From contig JAYELL010000020.1 of assembly GCA_034717495.1 (NCBI GenBank), positions 1 through 48,545 on the forward strand: 48,545 nucleotides of DNA. The letters run 5' to 3'. Origin of the DNA: Chloroflexota bacterium (GTDB lineage: Bacteria > Chloroflexota > Anaerolineae > JAAEKA01). Every line of letters begins with the position of its first letter. Within the stretch, counting starts at the first letter, position 1. The notes below the pieces were generated by a model. That model saw only the letters and a list, made by a program, of their open reading frames with translations, had not been told where the DNA came from and made no database searches. Below are positions 9,143-20,606 of this stretch, one piece after another. A program made the position numbers and the translations under genes.

Positions 9143-9721
9143 TTATGATCGCACCTGGCCCGATATCTCCATGGTCACAAAAACCAGGTCGGGCGCAAAA
9201 GACTGGGGTGGCAGGCCGTGGAACCAGCGCAGGGTTCCAAAGGCTGGGCTAACAGGATTCAAGTAGAGGCGCTGAATGTCGACGATGGTACCGCTCGTGG
9301 GTTTCCACAGCAGGGTGCCAGGTTCCAGCGCCAGCAGGCCAGCCAGGGGCGCCGTTCCCATGATCCAGTTGCCCTGGGTCAGGTTGTATGGCGTGGTGAT
9401 TTCACCTGAGTCCAGATCGGGATCAATCAGATCCATGCGCAGCGGCACGCCGCAATCGACCAGGACCTGGCAGACGGTAGTTCCCTGGCTTTGCCAGGTG
9501 TCGAATTGATCTACCCGACCACTGAATACGCAACGATCCAGGCTAAAGGGTTTCAAAATGGATCGCCCCGGCGAGTCCCGCCGAATCCATCCACAGCCAT
9601 CCTCCTGGTTGGTCGTTAACAGTCCGGCATCAAACTGCGCGCTGATGGGCAGACCGACCATCAATCCAGAGCGATCGTTGGCAGCATATTGGTTGTCAGA
9701 AAGAGAGAATGTGATTTGCAT
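9143..9721 (-). CDS. Hypothetical protein, function unknown
   Basis: 192 residues from an ATG at 9721, with no signal peptide or transmembrane segment. The composition suggests a mostly beta-strand, soluble globular protein, with four Cys residues (CGW, RCV, VCQ, DCG) and many aromatic residues. The phrases YNLTQGNWIMGTAPLAGLL and IQRLYLNPVSPAFGTLRWF look like exposed loops between strands. It is 53 bp downstream of the carboxyltransferase gene on the same strand and could be its second cistron. No family is recognised, and a metabolic role is not inferred. Confidence 0.65.
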   Translation of the reverse strand: MQITFSLSDNQYAANDRSGLMVGLPISAQFDAGLLTTNQEDGCGWIRRDSPGRSILKPFSLDRCVFSGRVDQFDTWQSQGTTVCQVLVDCGVPLRMDLIDPDLDSGEITTPYNLTQGNWIMGTAPLAGLLALEPGTLLWKPTSGTIVDIQRLYLNPVSPAFGTLRWFHGLPPQSFAPDLVFVTMEISGQVRS

Positions 9722-11455: not shown

Positions 11456-12259
11456 CTAAAACAAACTGATCATGCCCGTCAGTGTCAGCAGCACGATCAG
11501 GATTGGCTGGTGGATCAAATAGATCAGCAGGGAGTTCTGGCCCATCAGGCGCAGGCCTCTGACCAGCACGTTTTGCGACAGGTCGGGCAGGGGAAAATGC
11601 CGTTCGCCGCCCGCATAAAGCGTATTGCCGATGAGAATACCCAGCACAACCCGGGCGTACCAGGGAATGATCGGCGCCCAGTCGAAGACAGCGCCCGGCG
11701 ACTGGTCCAGGCCCAACCAGCCGAGCCAGCTGATGTTGGGATTCAACACGGGTAGTAATTGTCCCAAAACCAAAATGGCGATTCCCAAAAAAAGGTTGAG
11801 CCACTTGAAGCGCAGCAAGGGATAGGAAATGATGATTGAAACGCCGATCAAGTGAAGGATTCCGAAGCGCACGAAAACAGCAGGGTTGACAAAAAAGGTG
11901 ACCAGCGTGATCAGCATACCCCAGGAAAAGACCTGCAGGCCCCTTATCAGATATTTTCCGAACAGATTGCCGCTGCCGCCGCCCTGCCGCGCTGCGTTGT
12001 AGCTCAGGGTCAGGGAAAGACCTACCAGGCCGAGAAACAGGCTGGCCGTGATATTCTGCCAGGTCTTCCAGAATGGGCCGAACAGGTCAATGGGATAGCT
12101 ACCAAAGGCGTACAGGTCAAAGACCAGGTGGTAGATCACCATCATCATGATGGCAATCCCGCGAAGGAGGTCAATCTCCCACAGCCGGTCGCCGCGTGCC
12201 TGGCGCACCGGTGTGATGCTGGCGCGCATTCCTGTGAAATAGGTACTCAAAGCTGTCAT
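11456..12259 (-). CDS. DUF1624 (heparan-alpha-glucosaminide N-acetyltransferase-like) membrane protein
   Basis: The 267-residue polytopic membrane protein has about seven hydrophobic segments. Its N-terminal signature is RLWEIDLLRGIAIMMMVIYHLVFDL, characteristic of the DUF1624/acyltransferase-3-like group, followed by FLGLVGLSLTLSYNA, FGILHLIGVSIIISYPLL and a C-terminal LMGQNSLLIYLIHQPILI. The conserved His in MVIYHLVFDL and the HQP motif match the acetyl-transfer family, which acylates substrates across the membrane. Its physiological substrate in bacteria is unknown. The start overlaps the dehydrogenase stop (ATGA), indicating translational coupling. Confidence 0.85.
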   Translation of the reverse strand: MTALSTYFTGMRASITPVRQARGDRLWEIDLLRGIAIMMMVIYHLVFDLYAFGSYPIDLFGPFWKTWQNITASLFLGLVGLSLTLSYNAARQGGGSGNLFGKYLIRGLQVFSWGMLITLVTFFVNPAVFVRFGILHLIGVSIIISYPLLRFKWLNLFLGIAILVLGQLLPVLNPNISWLGWLGLDQSPGAVFDWAPIIPWYARVVLGILIGNTLYAGGERHFPLPDLSQNVLVRGLRLMGQNSLLIYLIHQPILIVLLTLTGMISLF

Positions 12260-13305
12260 GAGTTTGTCGCTGCCACGCGCAACAGGATCTTGCCGAAGTG
12301 TTGGCCACTCTGCAAACGTTCCTCGGCCATTCGAGCTTCCCGGAGGGGGAACACACTGTCTATTGGCGTGGCAAGCTTGCCACGGAAGAGCAAACCCATC
12401 ACCGTTTCGAAGTCAGACTGGCTGCCCATGGTAGAGCCCAGGATACTCAGTTGCCTGCCAAATACCAGGTTGATGGGCGTGGCGCCTGCGTAGCCCGTGG
12501 TGCCTCCTACCGTCAGCAATCGTCCCCCGCGCTTCAGCGAGCGCAGGCTGTCCTGCCAGGTGTTTTCACCCACATTGTCTACCACGACGTCCACACCCTG
12601 TTTGTTGCTATGGAGAAATACAGCTTTTGACCAATTGGCCTGCTCGCTGCGGTCGACGACCCAATCGGCACCGAGTTCGAGCGCGCGGCTGGCTTTCTGC
12701 GAGTTGCTGGCAACCACCCAGACCGTCGCTCCAATCAGCCTGGCCAGCTGGATCGCAAAACTGTTGACACCCCCGCCAGCGCCGACGATCAACACGACCT
12801 GGCCCGGTTTCAGCTGCCCGCGGGTGACCAACATGCGCCAGGTGGTGACAGCGACAAGGGGTGCTGCGGCAGCCTGTTGCATCGAAAAATCGTTGGGGAT
12901 CGCGATCAAGTTGCGGGCTGGCACCTTAACAAACTGGGCAAAGCTTCCCCTTATCTGTTCACCCAGGATGTGCCAGGAATCACACAGACTGTGCTCACCT
13001 TGCAGGCAGAAACTGCATTCTCCGCACCACATGGTGGGGTTTGCGGTTACTGCCTGTCCGGCGACCCAGCCCGTCACCTGTGTCCCGGTGGCGACGATCT
13101 GGCCGCTGAAGTCGGCGCCGGGAATGTGGGGCATTTCCAGGGTCAGGCCTTTCCAGCCCGTTATGACAAACTGGTCAAGCCGGTTGAGGGCAGCAAACGA
13201 AACGCGGACCAGTACCTCATCCGCTGCGATGACCGGGACCGGCAGGTTATCGACGAATTCGAGGGCATCCAGATCGCCGTGCTGATGGAAAACAATCGCT
13301 TGCAC
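12256..13305 (-). CDS. Zinc-type alcohol dehydrogenase / quinone reductase family protein
   Basis: 349 residues from GTG at 13305, the start that gives the family's usual N-terminus (MQAIVFHQHGDLDALEF). An ATG 24 nt upstream is also open. GroES-like domain: NRLDQFVITGW, HIPGADFSGQIVATG; structural zinc Cys set CGECSFCLQGEHSLC. Rossmann domain: GQVVLIVGAGGGVNSFAIQLARLIGATV, with NADP-type loop, then VVVDNVGENTWQDSLRSLKRGGRLLTVG. The protein is a medium-chain dehydrogenase/reductase of the NADPH:quinone reductase or alcohol dehydrogenase type; the substrate cannot be deduced. Its GTG overlaps the stop of the PHP gene by one base (TAGTG), and its stop overlaps the next start (ATGA). It is therefore the middle cistron of a coupled operon. 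Confidence 0.9.
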   Translation of the reverse strand: MQAIVFHQHGDLDALEFVDNLPVPVIAADEVLVRVSFAALNRLDQFVITGWKGLTLEMPHIPGADFSGQIVATGTQVTGWVAGQAVTANPTMWCGECSFCLQGEHSLCDSWHILGEQIRGSFAQFVKVPARNLIAIPNDFSMQQAAAAPLVAVTTWRMLVTRGQLKPGQVVLIVGAGGGVNSFAIQLARLIGATVWVVASNSQKASRALELGADWVVDRSEQANWSKAVFLHSNKQGVDVVVDNVGENTWQDSLRSLKRGGRLLTVGGTTGYAGATPINLVFGRQLSILGSTMGSQSDFETVMGLLFRGKLATPIDSVFPLREARMAEERLQSGQHFGKILLRVAATNS

Positions 13306-15611
13306 TAGGTGTTGATCAACTCCTGCCATTCGCCGGTGAGATCGTCCCAGCGGGCGCCGTAATAGATGTGATCAATCCCGTTTGGATCGCGATAGACCAG
13401 GTCGGTCGTTGTGAAAGATCGCCTCAGGCAACCGATGTTGCCCAACCAGCTAACCTGGCTATCATCTATTGGCCGGTCCTGATCCAGATGCATACGAAGA
13501 GCGTAATGTCTCAGGCTGCCTTCCTTCAGCAAGTCGGGCTGCCAGAGGCGGCTTTCCACGTGCTGATTGCCGAGGTTATGGAACTTGAACAGGGGATCGG
13601 TACCGTTCTCAAAGACCTCGACGACTTCCAAACCTGAGCGGGGCAGTGGCACGGTTAGCAACTGCTGCCATTCCGGCTGAAGCTTCTCGCAGGGCACATT
13701 CTGGAAGAACAGATCTCGTCCCTGCCGGTTTCTGAATACCAGATTGCCGCGAAGGCCGTCATCGGTTCGGACAAGGGACTCTATCCCCATGTTGCCACGC
13801 CAACGCACCTGGCGTCCCGATGGCAATGGCTCTGCGTCGATGCCGGCCGGCGGGTCAAAATCAAACAGTGCATCCCAGGCTGAGCTAATCCAGCTTACGG
13901 CGACTGCGTGGAAGATGCGTTCGATGTGCCCCTCCCCATTGCGAAAGACCAGGTCACACTTGACGCGATTGTGTTGATCGTAGACCTCGTTTTCGCGGTA
14001 AATCCGCAAGAGACCAATCTGATCTCGCCAACGCACCTGATGTTCCAGGTCGGCCAGGTGGCCGCGGGTTTCCTGGTGCAATTTGATGGCGTAGAGCCAG
14101 ACTGAGGTCGCGGTGTGCTGCGAAACCAGGCTTTCTCTGCCAGTGCGCAGATCCACTACCCGATAATACTCCCTGTCGCCTCGCAGGGAAACTCCGGCGA
14201 CCTCGACCCCGGATTTGGGTTGTTCGACACCTGTGCTAAGCATTTTTACCTGGCCGTTAAAACGGGTTTCCTGGCCGGGCGCTGAACTGCTCTCGGCGTG
14301 AACAAGGTCGATAATGTCGCCGTGGGATGCCAGGATAGTAGCGCCATCCTGTCTCACGTAGATCTTTCGCTCGTCATTGTCCCTGAGATAACAGGGTTTG
14401 CGCTGGGCCTCCTGTACGTCGATTTGCACGACTTCCTGTCCTTCGTAGGGCACGATATCCACCGACCATTCCGGTTGGGGGAAGACCCGCTCGGCGACGG
14501 CAGATTGAAAAGCGCGCATTTCCCGGGCAGCATCGATCAGACCTGTAACCGGCTTTTCCGGGTCGGGATCGATACCGAGGAAGATAGTGCCACCGCCTGC
14601 ATTGCTCAGAGCTGCAACGTGACAACAGAGATCATCCAGATTTTCCGCACAACCGGCACACAGAATCTGATGATCGGACGGGCCAGCGCTGCGCACGTCT
14701 GCGATGTGGTTGTAGCGGGCCACATCTGAAACGAATGGCACTCGGATCCGGTTGAAGTCGTTGCTCTTGAACAGGTCAAGCAGCCCATCGAACGTGGCCT
14801 CTGTCAGCAGCACTTCGGTGGGTCTGTCGCCGATACCCCAGCGATGCATTGAGGCGTCATGATCCTGCACAAGGCGGTGGGCATCGGAACTCTGAATGCA
14901 ATGCATTCGGCGCTCGTAGCCCAGATTGGACCCGTCGTACCAGCGAGGGCTGGAGAAGCCCTGGAGCTGCGTACTGTGAAAACTGGAAAACTCAAGCGCG
15001 TGAAGATATTCGTTTTGGGTTGCGCTCACGCGTGCTGTGCCGGTGGGCATATTGCTGGCGATTTCCAGAACCCCCGTCGGTGAGTTGATGTGCGCCCCGA
15101 TGACAATGCCCCCAGCCTGATTGATGATCTTGTAGGCCTCGAGATAAGCCTGGGAGCCTGGCAGAGAAGTAGTTCCCAGCGACATTTTCTCATAGGGAAC
15201 ACCGAGCTGGTGCAATACTGCCTTCAGTTGCGGAATGCTCGTTCGATCGTCCGGCGGGAAAACGCCCAGGATGTGTGCGCCAAAGCGGGTTGTAAACTCA
15301 AAGCCGGGCAATACGGCGATTTGTTTTAGGAGTCTATGGTATTCGTCAAGCTCTTCCTGTTCGTCGTCGCGCAGCCGCCCGCGCTGCCTGAGTTTTTCCA
15401 GAAATTCGATTTCGTCAAAGATTGCCTCGTAACCGGCAATGGTGTTATGGTCTGTTATGGCGATAATGTCCAGGCCCCGGCGCTCTGCTTCCTGCAACAC
15501 TTCAAGATAGGACGTCTCTTTTTGAACGTAGTCCTCGGAAGCGGGTGTATGGAGGTGTAAATCCATTCGATACCAGCGCATGGCCCCGGATGAAGAATCG
15601 GTCTCAAACAT
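13305..15611 (-). CDS. PHP phosphoesterase - AlbA_2 fusion protein with three C-terminal repeats
   Basis: 768 residues. Residues 11-290 form a PHP domain with the metal-site residues DLHLHT (His19, His21), ITDHNT (Asp54, His55), GFEF (Glu105), GAHILG (His113), GAHI (His174) and SSDAH (Asp243, His245). Residues 315-435 resemble the AlbA_2/Schlafen-type domain: VAALSNAGGGTIFLGIDPDP, then KIYVRQDGATILA. The C-terminal third (526-583, 602-652, 719-766) holds three diverged copies of a module with the pattern W-x-G-N-x-G ... L-V-[FY]-R ... G ... EWQ-x-L. I do not recognise this module. PHP domains hydrolyse phosphoesters and AlbA_2 domains bind nucleic acid, so a nuclease or nucleotide-processing role is likely. 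A defence role is conceivable but unproven. First gene of a coupled three-gene operon. Confidence 0.85.
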   Translation of the reverse strand: MFETDSSSGAMRWYRMDLHLHTPASEDYVQKETSYLEVLQEAERRGLDIIAITDHNTIAGYEAIFDEIEFLEKLRQRGRLRDDEQEELDEYHRLLKQIAVLPGFEFTTRFGAHILGVFPPDDRTSIPQLKAVLHQLGVPYEKMSLGTTSLPGSQAYLEAYKIINQAGGIVIGAHINSPTGVLEIASNMPTGTARVSATQNEYLHALEFSSFHSTQLQGFSSPRWYDGSNLGYERRMHCIQSSDAHRLVQDHDASMHRWGIGDRPTEVLLTEATFDGLLDLFKSNDFNRIRVPFVSDVARYNHIADVRSAGPSDHQILCAGCAENLDDLCCHVAALSNAGGGTIFLGIDPDPEKPVTGLIDAAREMRAFQSAVAERVFPQPEWSVDIVPYEGQEVVQIDVQEAQRKPCYLRDNDERKIYVRQDGATILASHGDIIDLVHAESSSAPGQETRFNGQVKMLSTGVEQPKSGVEVAGVSLRGDREYYRVVDLRTGRESLVSQHTATSVWLYAIKLHQETRGHLADLEHQVRWRDQIGLLRIYRENEVYDQHNRVKCDLVFRNGEGHIERIFHAVAVSWISSAWDALFDFDPPAGIDAEPLPSGRQVRWRGNMGIESLVRTDDGLRGNLVFRNRQGRDLFFQNVPCEKLQPEWQQLLTVPLPRSGLEVVEVFENGTDPLFKFHNLGNQHVESRLWQPDLLKEGSLRHYALRMHLDQDRPIDDSQVSWLGNIGCLRRSFTTTDLVYRDPNGIDHIYYGARWDDLTGEWQELINT

Positions 15612-15672: not shown

Positions 15673-16209
15673 TCAATCTATTGTGGGCACCTCCTGATCG
15701 AGATTCCGTAGGTTCTTTGGCTTTTTTGATAGGGCCGCCAGAGCGCCCAGCAGGCGGGCATAGGTCTGATCCAGCGACTCTGGAATGGTTCGGGTTTCGG
15801 CAACCGCGGTCATGAAATTGGTATCGGCACGCCAGCGCGGCACCACATGCAAATGCACGTGGTCCTTAATGCCTGCACCAGCCAGCTCGCCCAGGTTGGC
15901 ACCCACGTTGAAACCGTCGGGGGCCATGGCAAGCCGCAGTGCGGACAGTCCCTTGTTGACCAGGAGCATCATCTCTTGAAGGGTTTCCGGAGGCAGATTT
16001 TCCAGACTTGGTACGTGGGCGTAGGGAAGTACCAGCAAGTGGCCATTGTTATACGGGTAACGATTCAGCGCCAGGTATGCTGTTTGCCCGCGGAACAAAA
16101 CGTGTTCCGCCTGATCATCACCATTAACAATTTTCTCGCAAAACACACAAGCTTCTGTTTTTGGAGCCAAAATGTACTCCAGGCGCCACGGAGACCAAAG
16201 GTGATCCAA
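15673..16209 (-). CDS. HIT family nucleotide hydrolase
   Basis: The 178-residue protein of the histidine-triad superfamily (Ap4A hydrolase/FHIT-like branch) hydrolyses or transfers nucleotidyl groups of dinucleoside polyphosphates or adenylylated compounds. The triad HVHLHVVPRW contains the catalytic central His. Upstream are CVFCEKIVNGDD with a zinc-type Cys pair, and LVLPYAHVPSLENLPPETLQEM. The N-terminus MDHLWSPWRLEYI is typical of this subgroup, which supports the TTG start at 16209 (AAGGA 10 nt upstream, stop codon 18 nt before). It is a monocistronic-looking gene, divergent from the feo operon. Confidence 0.92.
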   Translation of the reverse strand: MDHLWSPWRLEYILAPKTEACVFCEKIVNGDDQAEHVLFRGQTAYLALNRYPYNNGHLLVLPYAHVPSLENLPPETLQEMMLLVNKGLSALRLAMAPDGFNVGANLGELAGAGIKDHVHLHVVPRWRADTNFMTAVAETRTIPESLDQTYARLLGALAALSKKPKNLRNLDQEVPTID

Positions 16210-16478: not shown

Positions 16479-17150
16479 ATGTATCCTACTTCGGTTTCCG
16501 CGGTACACCAGGACTATCTCAAGGCCATTTACATGCTTGGAGCGAGTGGTCAAGAGGCTTCCAACTCAGCTATTGCTGAGGCAATGGCGGTGGCGCCCGC
16601 GTCCGCGACCAATATGGTCAAGCGGTTGGCTGAGATGGACCTTATTGAATATCGCCCCTATCGGGGTGTTCGCCTGACGCCTGTGGGAGAACAGGTAGCT
16701 CTGGAGACGATCCGGCATCATCGTTTGCTCGAGCTTTTTTTGCACGAGGTCCTGGAGATACCCTGGGAAAAAGTGCATGCGGAGGCCGAGAAGCTGGAGC
16801 ATGCCATTAGTGAAGAGGTGGAAGAAGCAATTGCCCGCAAGCTGGGCTATCCCAGCTTCGACCCTCACGGTGATCCCATTCCTGCCCGGGATGGTTCCAA
16901 GGCATTGGTTGCCGATGTCTTGCTCTCGGAGCTCCCACCGAATCGCCCTGCCTTTGTGACGCGCGTCCTGATTCAGGAGGAAGAGCGATTGCGTTATCTG
17001 GGTGATCTGGGAATCACGCCGGGTGCCAGCCTCACCGTCGTCGATCGGGTACCTTTTGAGGGCCCGTTGATCGTGAGAATTGGCGGGCGAAGTCATGTGC
17101 TGGCCTTTGAGATGGCGGAACATCTGCGGGTGGCCGAACGGGCCAACTGA
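16479..17150 (+). CDS. DtxR/MntR-family metal-dependent transcriptional regulator
   Basis: 223 residues: winged helix (1-72; NSAIAEAMAVAPASATNMVKRLAEMDLIEY then wing YRGVRLTPVG), dimerisation/metal domain (75-140) and a C-terminal FeoA/SH3-like domain (150-220). Metal-ligand positions of the family are conserved: Asp12 (HQDYLKAIYML), His81 and Glu85 (HRLLE), His100, Glu104, Glu107 and His108 (HAEAEKLEH), plus DPHGDPIP. Position 104 is Glu as in MntR, not Cys as in DtxR/IdeR, so the sensed metal could be manganese or iron. The downstream feo genes favour iron. First gene of the operon; it probably binds the dyad at 16450-16465. Confidence 0.93.
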   Translation: MYPTSVSAVHQDYLKAIYMLGASGQEASNSAIAEAMAVAPASATNMVKRLAEMDLIEYRPYRGVRLTPVGEQVALETIRHHRLLELFLHEVLEIPWEKVHAEAEKLEHAISEEVEEAIARKLGYPSFDPHGDPIPARDGSKALVADVLLSELPPNRPAFVTRVLIQEEERLRYLGDLGITPGASLTVVDRVPFEGPLIVRIGGRSHVLAFEMAEHLRVAERAN

Positions 17151-17164
17151 AGACGGAGAAACTC

Positions 17165-18205
17165 ATGTATGATCCCTTGATCGCTCTGGCAATCGCTGGC
17201 ATCCTGGCTGGTGTGCTGGCGGTGCTCTTCTGGCCTGAACGAGGCGTGGTGAGCCGCTGGCGGCGTACCCAGCGGATGACGGAGCGTGTTCTTATCGAGG
17301 ATGCTCTCAAATGCATCCATAAGAGTGAAATGCGGGGCCAGGTGCCAACGGTCGACAGTATTGCCGGGGGGATTCAAGTTCCACGAGACACTGTGGCCGG
17401 AATCCTGGAAATGATGCAAGACCTTGGCCTGGTTGAAACCGGCGAGGGCGAGATACGACTGACGCCTGAGGGCCGGGATGCGGCATTGCGTATCATCCGG
17501 GCCCATCGTCTTTTTGAGCAGTACCTGGCTGACCGCACCAGCTACGACGAGTCTGAGTGGCATGAACGTGCCGAGCGTTATGAACACGCGCTGCAGCTCG
17601 ATGATATCGATGCCCTGTCTGCAAGCCTGGGCAATCCGACCCACGATCCCCATGGCGACCCGATACCCGACTCCACCGGCGATTTTGTCGCCCACGGAGG
17701 GTTGTCCCTGGCCAGCATGTCAGCTGATACCATGGTTCAGATCGTTCACATCGAGGATGAGCCGGATACGGTGTACGCCCAGCTGGTTGCAGAAGGTTTA
17801 TATCCGGGCATGGACGCGTTGATCACAGAGATTTCGCCCCGGCGAATCCGTTTCTGGGCCAATGGTGAGGAACATGTATTGGCACCCTTGCTGGCCGGCA
17901 ACATTTCAGTTGTGCCCCTGGTGCATGAGGCGCGGGCCAGCGATTTGCCGGCCGACAGAGGCCAAACGATGGCGATTCTCGAACTCGGCGAACGAGGAGA
18001 GGTCACTGCGCTATCCCCTCGCATACGGGGTGCGGAGCGTCGCCGGCTTATGGATCTGGGATTGCTGCCAGGAACCATTGTGACCGCAGAACTAAGAAGC
18101 CCGGGGGGCGATCCAACCGCATACCGCATTCGGGATGCGCTGATCGCTCTGCGGGAGGACCAGGCAGAGCAAATCAGTGTCAATAGACTGCCGGAGGTTG
18201 CCTGA
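17165..18205 (+). CDS. Membrane-anchored DtxR-like protein with two FeoA domains
   Basis: 346 residues with an uncommon layout. A transmembrane helix (residues 5-23, LIALAIAGILAGVLAVLFW) is followed by a basic stretch (RWRRTQR). A DtxR-like winged helix (38-105, SIAGGIQVPRDTVAGILEMMQDLGLVE) and the dimerisation/metal domain come next, keeping Asp46, His114, Glu118, His133, Glu137, Glu140 and His141 together with THDPHGDPIP. Two FeoA/SH3-like domains follow (about 183-255 and 265-343; second one ERRRLMDLGLLPGT). All metal-ligand positions seen in the preceding soluble regulator are retained. It lies between that regulator (14 bp) and feoB (1-bp overlap). Inference: a membrane-tethered iron sensor, a FeoA-like partner of FeoB, or both. 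There is no separate feoA in the window. Confidence 0.88.
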   Translation: MYDPLIALAIAGILAGVLAVLFWPERGVVSRWRRTQRMTERVLIEDALKCIHKSEMRGQVPTVDSIAGGIQVPRDTVAGILEMMQDLGLVETGEGEIRLTPEGRDAALRIIRAHRLFEQYLADRTSYDESEWHERAERYEHALQLDDIDALSASLGNPTHDPHGDPIPDSTGDFVAHGGLSLASMSADTMVQIVHIEDEPDTVYAQLVAEGLYPGMDALITEISPRRIRFWANGEEHVLAPLLAGNISVVPLVHEARASDLPADRGQTMAILELGERGEVTALSPRIRGAERRRLMDLGLLPGTIVTAELRSPGGDPTAYRIRDALIALREDQAEQISVNRLPEVA

Positions 18206-19170
18206 TGGCTGAAAACGAAAATGGCAAGAACTTGAAACCAACTGGGGCGGATCGATCTGTCATGTGGCTTGAGGAGGTTGAGCGATTATCAAGCGAGGAT
18301 CAACCCGAAGCGTCGCCTGATGTGACCATCACGATCCAACCCATTCCCGAGAGTTCGGGGGGGTGCGAAAGTTGTGCCGTACACAATGCTGCCAACCTGC
18401 ACAAGTTGGGTGTGGACATGGAGGACTGGGATTACGTTGTCGCTCTGGCGGGCAATCCCAACGTGGGAAAGAGTACTGTATTCAATGCTCTGACAGGTCT
18501 GCGCCAACACACCGGCAATTGGCCGGGCAAAACAGTCGCCCGCGCCGAAGGGGGATACGAGTATGGCGGCGATCGCTACAAACTGGTCGATCTGCCTGGC
18601 ACCTATTCCCTGTTGGCCACCAGCATGGACGAGGAAGTGGCCCGGGACTTCATCCTCTTTGGCCAACCTGACGTTACCCTGGTGGTTGTCGATGCCACGC
18701 GGCTTGAACGCAATCTGAACCTTGTGCTACAGGTGTCGGAGATCACCGACCGCGTCGTGATTGCCCTCAATTTGATCGATGAGGCCCGTCGTCATGGTCT
18801 CACCATCGACCACCGGCGCCTGGCTCGAGATCTGGGGGTACCTGTGGTGCCAATTGCGGCCCGCAGTCGGGAAAATCTTGATGCCCTCTTACAGGCCATT
18901 GCCGAGGTTGCAACGGGAAAAACTGTGGGCAAACCGCATCGGGTCAAGGGGAAGTCTCGCGAGCTGCAAAATGCGGTTACGGAATTGGCAAGCCAGATCG
19001 AAGCTGTCTACCCGGGATTGCCCAACGCCCGCTGGGTTGCGCTACGTTTGCTGGACGGCGACCAGCGAATCATCGATGCGATCCAACGGGGGGAGTTGGG
19101 TGATCTGACCCATGGCGACGCGGAACAACGGGTCCAGGAACTGAACCTGACTCTGGAGCCTGCCAGATGA
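18205..19170 (+). CDS. feoB: FeoB GTPase domain protein (N-terminal half of split FeoB)
   Basis: 321 residues forming the cytosolic G-protein part of the ferrous-iron transporter. G1 GNPNVGKST (83-91), G2 region [10 protein letters not shown]3 DLPGTYSL (from 129), G4 NLID (189-192), G5-like PIAARSREN. The start of the FeoB helical domain ([14 protein letters not shown]) follows, then the protein ends. It has an N-terminal extension with a CxxC pair (Cys54, Cys57; GGCESCAVH) that is not part of the classic G domain. GTP binding gates the membrane half encoded next. The start ATG overlaps the previous TGA; the end overlaps the permease gene by 4 bp (ATGA). Confidence 0.94.
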
Positions 19171-20606
19171 GTGATACAATCAATACCTATACACCTGACA
19201 CCATACTCGATACCGCGCGATCGATGCGCTGGGAGATGGGAACTGACTATCATCAGACGTTGATGGAGGATCTTTACAGCGATGCCGCCACCATTGCCGG
19301 CCGGGCAGTAACCCGGCCCGATCAGAAGCCCCGCTTCGATCTGGATCATACCATAGATCGCCTGGTCACCAGCCGGCTCTTCGGCTTTCCGATCATGATC
19401 CTGCTGTTTACCGTGATATTCTGGCTTACGATCAGTGGCGCCAATGTGCCTTCGGCCATGCTCGCCGATCTGTTGATTGGCACGATTTATCCCTGGCTGC
19501 ACGAAGTTGCCAATGCCATCGGAATGCCCTGGTGGTTGAGCGGTTTTCTCATCGACGGCATGTACCTGGCGACAGCCTGGGTCGTAAGCGTGATGCTTCC
19601 CCCGATGGCTATATTCTTCCCGTTGTTTACGCTGTTGGAGGACTTCGGCTATCTGCCGAGGGTGGCTTTCAATCTGGACAACATTTTTCGCAAGTCGGGC
19701 GCCCACGGCAAACAGTCGTTGAGCATGATGATGGGCTTTGGCTGCAACGCCGCGGGGGTGATCTCAACCCGCATCATCGATAGTCCCCGGGAACGACTGG
19801 TGGCGATTATCACCAACAACTTTTCCCTCTGCAACGGGCGGTGGCCTACCCAAATTCTGGTTGCCACGCTGTTCATCGGTGCACTGGTGCCGGCCCACGT
19901 GGCCGGGCTGGTGTCGGCGCTGGCGGTGGTGGGGATTGCCGCTCTGGGCATTCTTTTGACCTTTGTGCTTTCGTGGAGCCTCTCCCGCGGCGTGCTGAAG
20001 GGAGAAGCCTCCACCTACAGCCTGGAGTTGCCCCCCTACCGGCCACCACGGATATTGCAGACGCTGTATACCTCGATCATCGACCGCACGATCCCTGTCC
20101 TCTGGCGCGCCATTCTGTTTGCACTGCCGGCCGGCGCCGTCATATGGCTGATCTCCAACGTCACCGTCGGCGGAACGTCAATCGCCGAATACATGATCGA
20201 TTTCTTGAATCCGTTGGGATTGCTTCTCGGCCTGAACGGGGTCATCCTTGTGGCCTTTATCGTCGCCATTCCGGCCAATGAAATCGTCATTCCCACGATT
20301 CTCATGCTGACTGTGTTGGTGTCTGGCTTTTCCGGAGCGGGAGCGGGCGCCGGGGTAATGTTCGAACTGGATTCGGCCGTGCAAACCAAGGCCGTGTTAG
20401 TCGCCGGCGGCTGGACATTGTTAACAGCGATCAGCGTCATGTTGTTCAGTCTGATCCACAACCCTTGCAGCACGACGATCTACACCATCTTCAAGGAAAC
20501 GGGAAGTAAAAGATGGACGACTGTGTCGGCGCTGCTGCCGCTGGCTCTGGGGTTTCTGGTGACTTTTGTGGTGGCCCAGGTGTGGCGTTTGTTGGGTGGG
20601 GTCTGA
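19167..20606 (+). CDS. feoB: FeoB membrane permease (C-terminal half of split FeoB)
   Basis: 479 residues; about eight to ten transmembrane segments with the Gate domains that carry Fe2+ across the membrane. The N-terminal 70 residues continue the FeoB helical domain ([27 protein letters not shown] matches the usual TDKIDRIVTNRILGLPI region). Gate motifs: [65 protein letters not shown] and [16 protein letters not shown]. The classic FeoB second-gate motif MSCGAKLPVY is replaced by [11 protein letters not shown], which retains a Cys. The 4-bp ATGA overlap with the GTPase gene and the intact N-terminus argue for a natural split, not a frameshift. Confidence 0.94.

Follow-up and report, generated by a model that had tools for sequence, protein, structure and literature searches.

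A PHP-AlbA_2 protein with a recurrent C-terminal module in the chromosomes of Chloroflexota

Introduction

One gene of a Chloroflexota genome joins a PHP phosphoesterase domain to a Schlafen-type AlbA_2 domain and a set of C-terminal repeats. What would such a protein act on, and does it serve the housekeeping of the cell or its defence against viruses? The gene lies on contig JAYELL010000020.1, whose 48,545 nucleotides, taken as a whole, are called the window here. The initial annotation, made from the letters of the sequence, had suggested a role in nucleic-acid processing or defence. A literature search for a PHP domain in combination with AlbA_2 found no paper. We report that the protein family is real, undescribed and lineage-wide, and that the window gene is one form of a previously undescribed, widespread Chloroflexota chromosomal protein.

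Results

Architecture of the window protein

Translation of the window confirmed the gene as an intact, uninterrupted reading frame, lying on the minus strand, a detail left unstated at the outset (Table 1). A structure model of the full-length 768-aa protein was poor (pLDDT 57.8).

Table 1. Coordinates, in the window, of the PHP-AlbA_2 gene, its domains and the adjoining genes
Feature	Position	Strand	Basis
PHP-AlbA_2-module protein, three-module form, 768 aa	13305..15611	-	ORF and translation; three other genomes of the window's family have full-length relatives at 65-69% identity
PHP phosphoesterase domain with an intact set of metal ligands, residues ~11-290	14742..15581	-	NCBIfam TrlF and Ppl, Pfam PHP, ligand conservation
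SLFN_AlbA_2 domain, residues 327-425; no counterpart found for the first two acidic residues of the Schlafen RNase triad	14337..14633	-	Pfam PF04326, E 7.8e-15; alignment
Module 1, full, residues 466-584	13860..14216	-	One-module-relative profile, i-E 2.1e-15; A1 profile, E 4.3e-30
Module 2, a half copy comprising the C-terminal half, residues 592-653	13653..13838	-	Profile match at 599-652, i-E 6.3e-5; A1 profile, E 3.7e-4; same half copy in other three-module proteins
Module 3, full, acidic, residues 658-767	13311..13640	-	Profile, i-E 1.4e-12; A1 profile, E 2.3e-31; pI 5.0
HIT-domain protein (ATP adenylyltransferase-like), 62 bp upstream	15673..16209	-	Pfam HIT, E 6e-14; NCBIfam ATP adenylyltransferase, 137 bits, below cut-off
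Zinc-type medium-chain dehydrogenase, coupled start	12256..13305	-	Pfam ADH_N/ADH_zinc_N; a 71% relative at the corresponding position of one other genome
HGSNAT_cat-domain membrane protein (acyltransferase-like), coupled by ATGA	11456..12259	-	Pfam HGSNAT_cat, E 1.6e-66; a 57% relative at the corresponding position of one other genome

The metal site of the PHP domain, described as intact in the initial annotation, has its full set of ligands (H19, H21, D54/H55, E105, H113, H174, D243 and H245), and these are 96-98% conserved in 104 homologues. The score against the Pfam PHP family (PF02811) is marginally under the gathering score (25.3 against 26.4 bits), and NCBIfam models that contain a PHP domain match residues 11-277, the best being TrlF (E 1.6e-25), with Ppl at residues 12-220 and Spaf_1101 also matching. 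The closest domains are those of the TrlF/Ppl type; weaker matches, limited to the N-terminal ~50 residues, are to RNase RNM/AM (YciV) and 3',5'-nucleoside bisphosphate phosphatase, which share PHP motif I with the window protein but have neither AlbA_2 nor modules. Whereas the TrlF, Ppl and Spaf_1101 proteins have an SMC/AAA-like ATPase, the window protein has AlbA_2 and the modules in its place, and a Pfam search found no ATPase family in it. The match stops at residue 277, and the whole-protein scores are far under the TrlF and Ppl family cut-offs (90.1 against 350 and 67 against 1000 bits). The published TrlF lies within a Photorhabdus temperature-restriction operon, where its own importance has not been shown (PMC7554251). 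Separately, one genome (G448) encodes a standalone TrlF-type PHP protein of 284 aa (L148:8824-9678; 130 bits to the TrlF model) with no ATPase or AlbA_2.

The second domain also stood up, at 55.9 bits against a gathering score of 25.3, and this significant match is shared with the Schlafen core proteins. AlbA_2 binds nucleic acid in characterised cases, and the active site of the Schlafen ribonucleases is a Glu-Glu-Asp triad within it (PMC11221667). Unlike the Schlafen proteins, the three-module form has no helicase, and sequence alignment, as opposed to structure, did not find a conserved Glu pair at the start of AlbA_2 in the three-module proteins; they conserve no more than an acidic residue at position 385. 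Since the triad is absent by alignment, the PHP site is left as the sole candidate for a catalytic centre.

The C-terminal module

The repeats were located with a profile built from one-module relatives only, and thus independent of the window protein. Three copies had been proposed; the repeats are real, but they amount to two full modules of ~109 aa and one half module. The consensus can be written GVEI...YY..RDLRNG..V.NVT..SAR.LW.YAI ... W.G.IGL....RYDLVQR...YYGVTE.G..G.W. As the initial annotation had it, the module is unrecognised: no Pfam family claims it, and comparison with PDB sequences gave nothing convincing. Carbohydrate-binding modules were considered and rejected, with Pfam matches at chance level only (CBM_56, E 0.09).

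A model of the module from a six-row alignment had a mean pLDDT of 92 and predicted two beta-strand-rich halves, each with a terminal helix (E-E-E-H then E-E-E-E-H, the final helix being short). Foldseek searches of this model against PDB and viral structures gave no match below E 0.001; the top match was an SsgA-like protein (E 0.0065, TM about 0.3), and VIA returned a mixture of folds with Z at most 4.4. PUR-repeat proteins are built from repeats of a four-stranded beta sheet plus a helix (PMC2954813), and the PUR, SsgA-like and longin/roadblock folds all resemble the predicted module in having two strand-rich halves that end in a helix. However, at TM-scores of about 0.3 and such VIA values the matches are too weak and mixed for the SsgA-like/whirly, PUR or longin/roadblock fold to be assigned; PUR gave no sequence match, nor was a PUR structure among the Foldseek and VIA matches shown. 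A dsRBD identity was likewise set aside, the Foldseek matches being weak and the final helix of the model short. The two halves align in register, but an internal repeat is not significant, the best of 60 shuffles exceeding the real score. The predicted fold is thus left unassigned and is not claimed as new.

Most copies of the module are basic, with a median pI of 9.5 in one-module forms and values of 9.2 and 9.5 for modules 1 and 2 of three-module forms. The acidic character of module 3 and the near-neutral one of module 1 in the window protein disfavour direct nucleic-acid binding by every copy; the acidic third module may bind protein or regulate. A generally basic or RG-rich character of the linkers was considered and rejected, as it holds for only a few proteins (L002, L060 and L068) and the median linker net charge is -3. 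A lone 40-residue module fragment ~0.8 kb downstream of a full gene in genome G059 (L116:8206-8418) looks like a decayed partial duplication.

In one genome (G016), the module was found on a protein of another kind, where it forms the C-terminal end of an NYN-domain protein of 509 aa (L110:4789-6318; NYN E 4.6e-32). The catalytic domain of the NYN ribonucleases is unrelated to that of the window family, and the closest NYN relatives of this protein have no module. G016 has no PHP-AlbA_2 protein, while a PHP-type protein with the module is encoded by 4 of the 5 further genomes sampled from its family. PHP-AlbA_2 is also missing from all 15 genomes with a close relative of the G016 NYN protein (G005, G011, G016, G033, G037, G042, G047, G066, G069, G074, G093, G096, G100, G113 and G116). 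This pattern possibly reflects replacement and possibly shared ancestry only, with which it is largely confounded.

Distribution and the two forms

A homologue was present in 120 of the 199 genomes sampled from the window's class (~60%; 84 of the 131 of good quality), nearly always as one copy of the one-module form, mostly of about 560-870 aa, and the module profile recovered nearly the same set and almost nothing else. Named relatives (Bellilinea, Longilinea and Anaerolinea) and genome sizes lead us to infer that this class is Anaerolineae and that a second Chloroflexota class examined is Chloroflexia. In the second class, 107 of 150 genomes (73 of 93 of good quality) had a module-bearing gene. 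Five families of this second class have the three-module form, arranged full-half-full (f66, f76, f102, f105 and f133), and five the one-module form (f97, f107, f119, f135 and f136). Among the genomes of the window's class, only four, all of the window's own family, showed the three-module form. One of them, the window's own genome, has both forms, with L002 as its one-module copy.

A tree of the PHP-AlbA_2 part, unrooted, with long branches and from a quick search, has one fully supported branch that splits one-module from three-module proteins, and on the three-module side the window's clade stands apart on a long branch. Transfer and old duplication are both compatible with this tree. The three-module proteins form a subfamily of their own, an old one, which has the head of the one-module form and a larger tail that would serve for binding.

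A genus with a degenerate PHP site

All or nearly all PHP ligands have been lost in 8 of 8 sampled genomes of one genus (g231; L155, L156 and L165-L170), where HxH is changed to PHV or PYV, TDHN to TGIG or TDLG, H174 to P and DAH to GAT. These proteins retain AlbA_2 and all modules, with scores as in their relatives. Because ligands were lost yet the other domains kept, catalysis is not the sole conserved role. The same observation would fit a regulator or scaffold that binds nucleic acid and is mainly non-catalytic, with a PHP domain that serves for structure or sensing, and there is a precedent in E. coli Pol III, whose PHP domain has lost its metal ligands and keeps a structural role (PMC3666897). 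We nevertheless consider this unlikely for the family at large, given the near-complete ligand conservation elsewhere, the window included.

Gene neighbourhoods

The stop codon of the window gene overlaps the start of the dehydrogenase gene (TAGTG), and the dehydrogenase and acyltransferase-like genes meet at ATGA; from these junctions the operon can be taken to be translationally coupled, as the initial annotation had held. The GTG at 13305 is the likelier dehydrogenase start because homology begins at about residue 8. Both downstream genes are found in 2 of the 4 three-module genomes of the window's family. The most conserved neighbour is the HIT gene, absent from the initial annotation and found just upstream in all four of these genomes; the window gene is probably co-transcribed with this nucleotide hydrolase/transferase.

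The HIT linkage raises the alternative that the protein is a nucleotide or small-molecule phosphoesterase, acting for example on 3',5'-bisphosphates or dinucleotides in the same nucleotide pathway as its HIT neighbour, with C-terminal domains that are regulatory or oligomerising. PHP relatives do include the 3',5'-nucleoside bisphosphate phosphatase, and the neighbours in other families are metabolic. We regard this as rather unlikely, since the HIT link is restricted to one family, and AlbA_2 together with a mostly basic module, fused elsewhere to a NYN RNase, suggests polymer substrates.

Outside the window's family, the three-module form had no fixed neighbourhood; its varied neighbours included ribonucleotide reductase (by Pfam), a UbiE-like methyltransferase and pyruvate-dehydrogenase-type genes (both read from sequence). 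UbiA is also among the neighbours of the family's genes. For the one-module form, we counted neighbours, identified by Pfam, at 69 loci with at least 1.5 kb upstream. The lon gene lay immediately upstream on the same strand in 35, a response-regulator ORF upstream in 18, a MogA-type gene downstream in 18 and hsp20 within 6 kb in 28. None of lon, hsp20 or mogA was seen at 33 three-module loci. Placement beside lon and hsp20 suggests that the one-module form has a part in stress or quality control; its neighbourhood (hsp20-lon-response regulator-PHP-mogA) would be one of protein and RNA quality control.

Three further observations concern neighbouring genes. Near lon and the one-module gene, two uncharacterised proteins that match no Pfam family occur repeatedly as a pair (L053:2916-4676 and L159:6032-6469). 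On the plus strand of the window (16479-20606), two DtxR-like regulators are followed by two ORFs that read, from sequence, as FeoB GTPase and membrane parts, an iron-uptake cluster with a split transporter. On the minus strand (9143-9721), a 192-aa protein with no Pfam match sits beside acyl-CoA carboxylase genes and has a 55% counterpart at the same position in L036.

Discussion

Could the window protein be an anti-phage defence effector related to TrlF and Ppl, as first suggested? Its PHP domain is most similar to theirs, the PADLOC Ppl model matches that part (E 9e-15), and plasmid-borne TrlF-type ATPases have the same domain. However, the lack of an ATPase, the scores far below the family cut-offs, the core-gene distribution, the housekeeping neighbours and the absence of mobile copies make such a role very improbable. 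Relatives were found neither on phages nor on viral contigs, and the plasmid matches listed covered only the PHP domain of TrlF-type proteins; the window family is chromosomal and lineage-wide, unlike the mobile PHP-ATPases. The initial annotation had proposed looking for defence genes near homologues, and none was recognised among the neighbours. What it had named as counting against its reading, homologues confined to metabolic contexts, is close to what was found (lon, hsp20, mogA, UbiA, ribonucleotide reductase and pyruvate-dehydrogenase-type genes). Of the two roles proposed, defence is unsupported and nucleic-acid processing is plausible, in view of the TrlF/Ppl-like PHP domain, AlbA_2 and the module on a NYN ribonuclease. 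The genomic company suggests a routine housekeeping function, concerned with nucleic acids or stress, and not one in virus defence.

The reading that we prefer, at a probability of roughly 45%, is a chromosomal, non-mobile Chloroflexota phosphoesterase that would act on nucleic acid or on the ends of it, with RNA as the probable substrate. The PHP domain would be a metal-dependent hydrolase, and AlbA_2 and the C-terminal modules would bind the substrate or a partner and deliver it to the PHP site. AlbA_2, the mostly basic module and its reuse on a ribonuclease favour a nucleic-acid substrate; the conserved metal ligands, the TrlF/Ppl-like PHP subtype, the lineage-wide and mostly single-copy distribution and the adjacency to lon also speak for a phosphoesterase of this kind. 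Against it stand the ligand loss in g231, the acidic module 3, the near-neutral module 1 of the window, the weak and mixed structural matches, and the varied three-module neighbourhoods. A bolder and unlikely version would make the module a new, interchangeable Chloroflexota nucleic-acid-recognition domain that aims PHP and NYN nuclease heads at the same transcripts, in a heat-shock-linked RNA decay beside Lon.

A mostly single-copy gene of many Chloroflexota, with no name or assigned function, carries a domain that Pfam does not have. Ready test cases exist within the family, namely the genus whose catalytic site is lost, the module moved onto a ribonuclease and the recurring place beside lon and hsp20. 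The family could bring to light an enzyme of RNA or nucleotide quality control that is specific to Chloroflexota.
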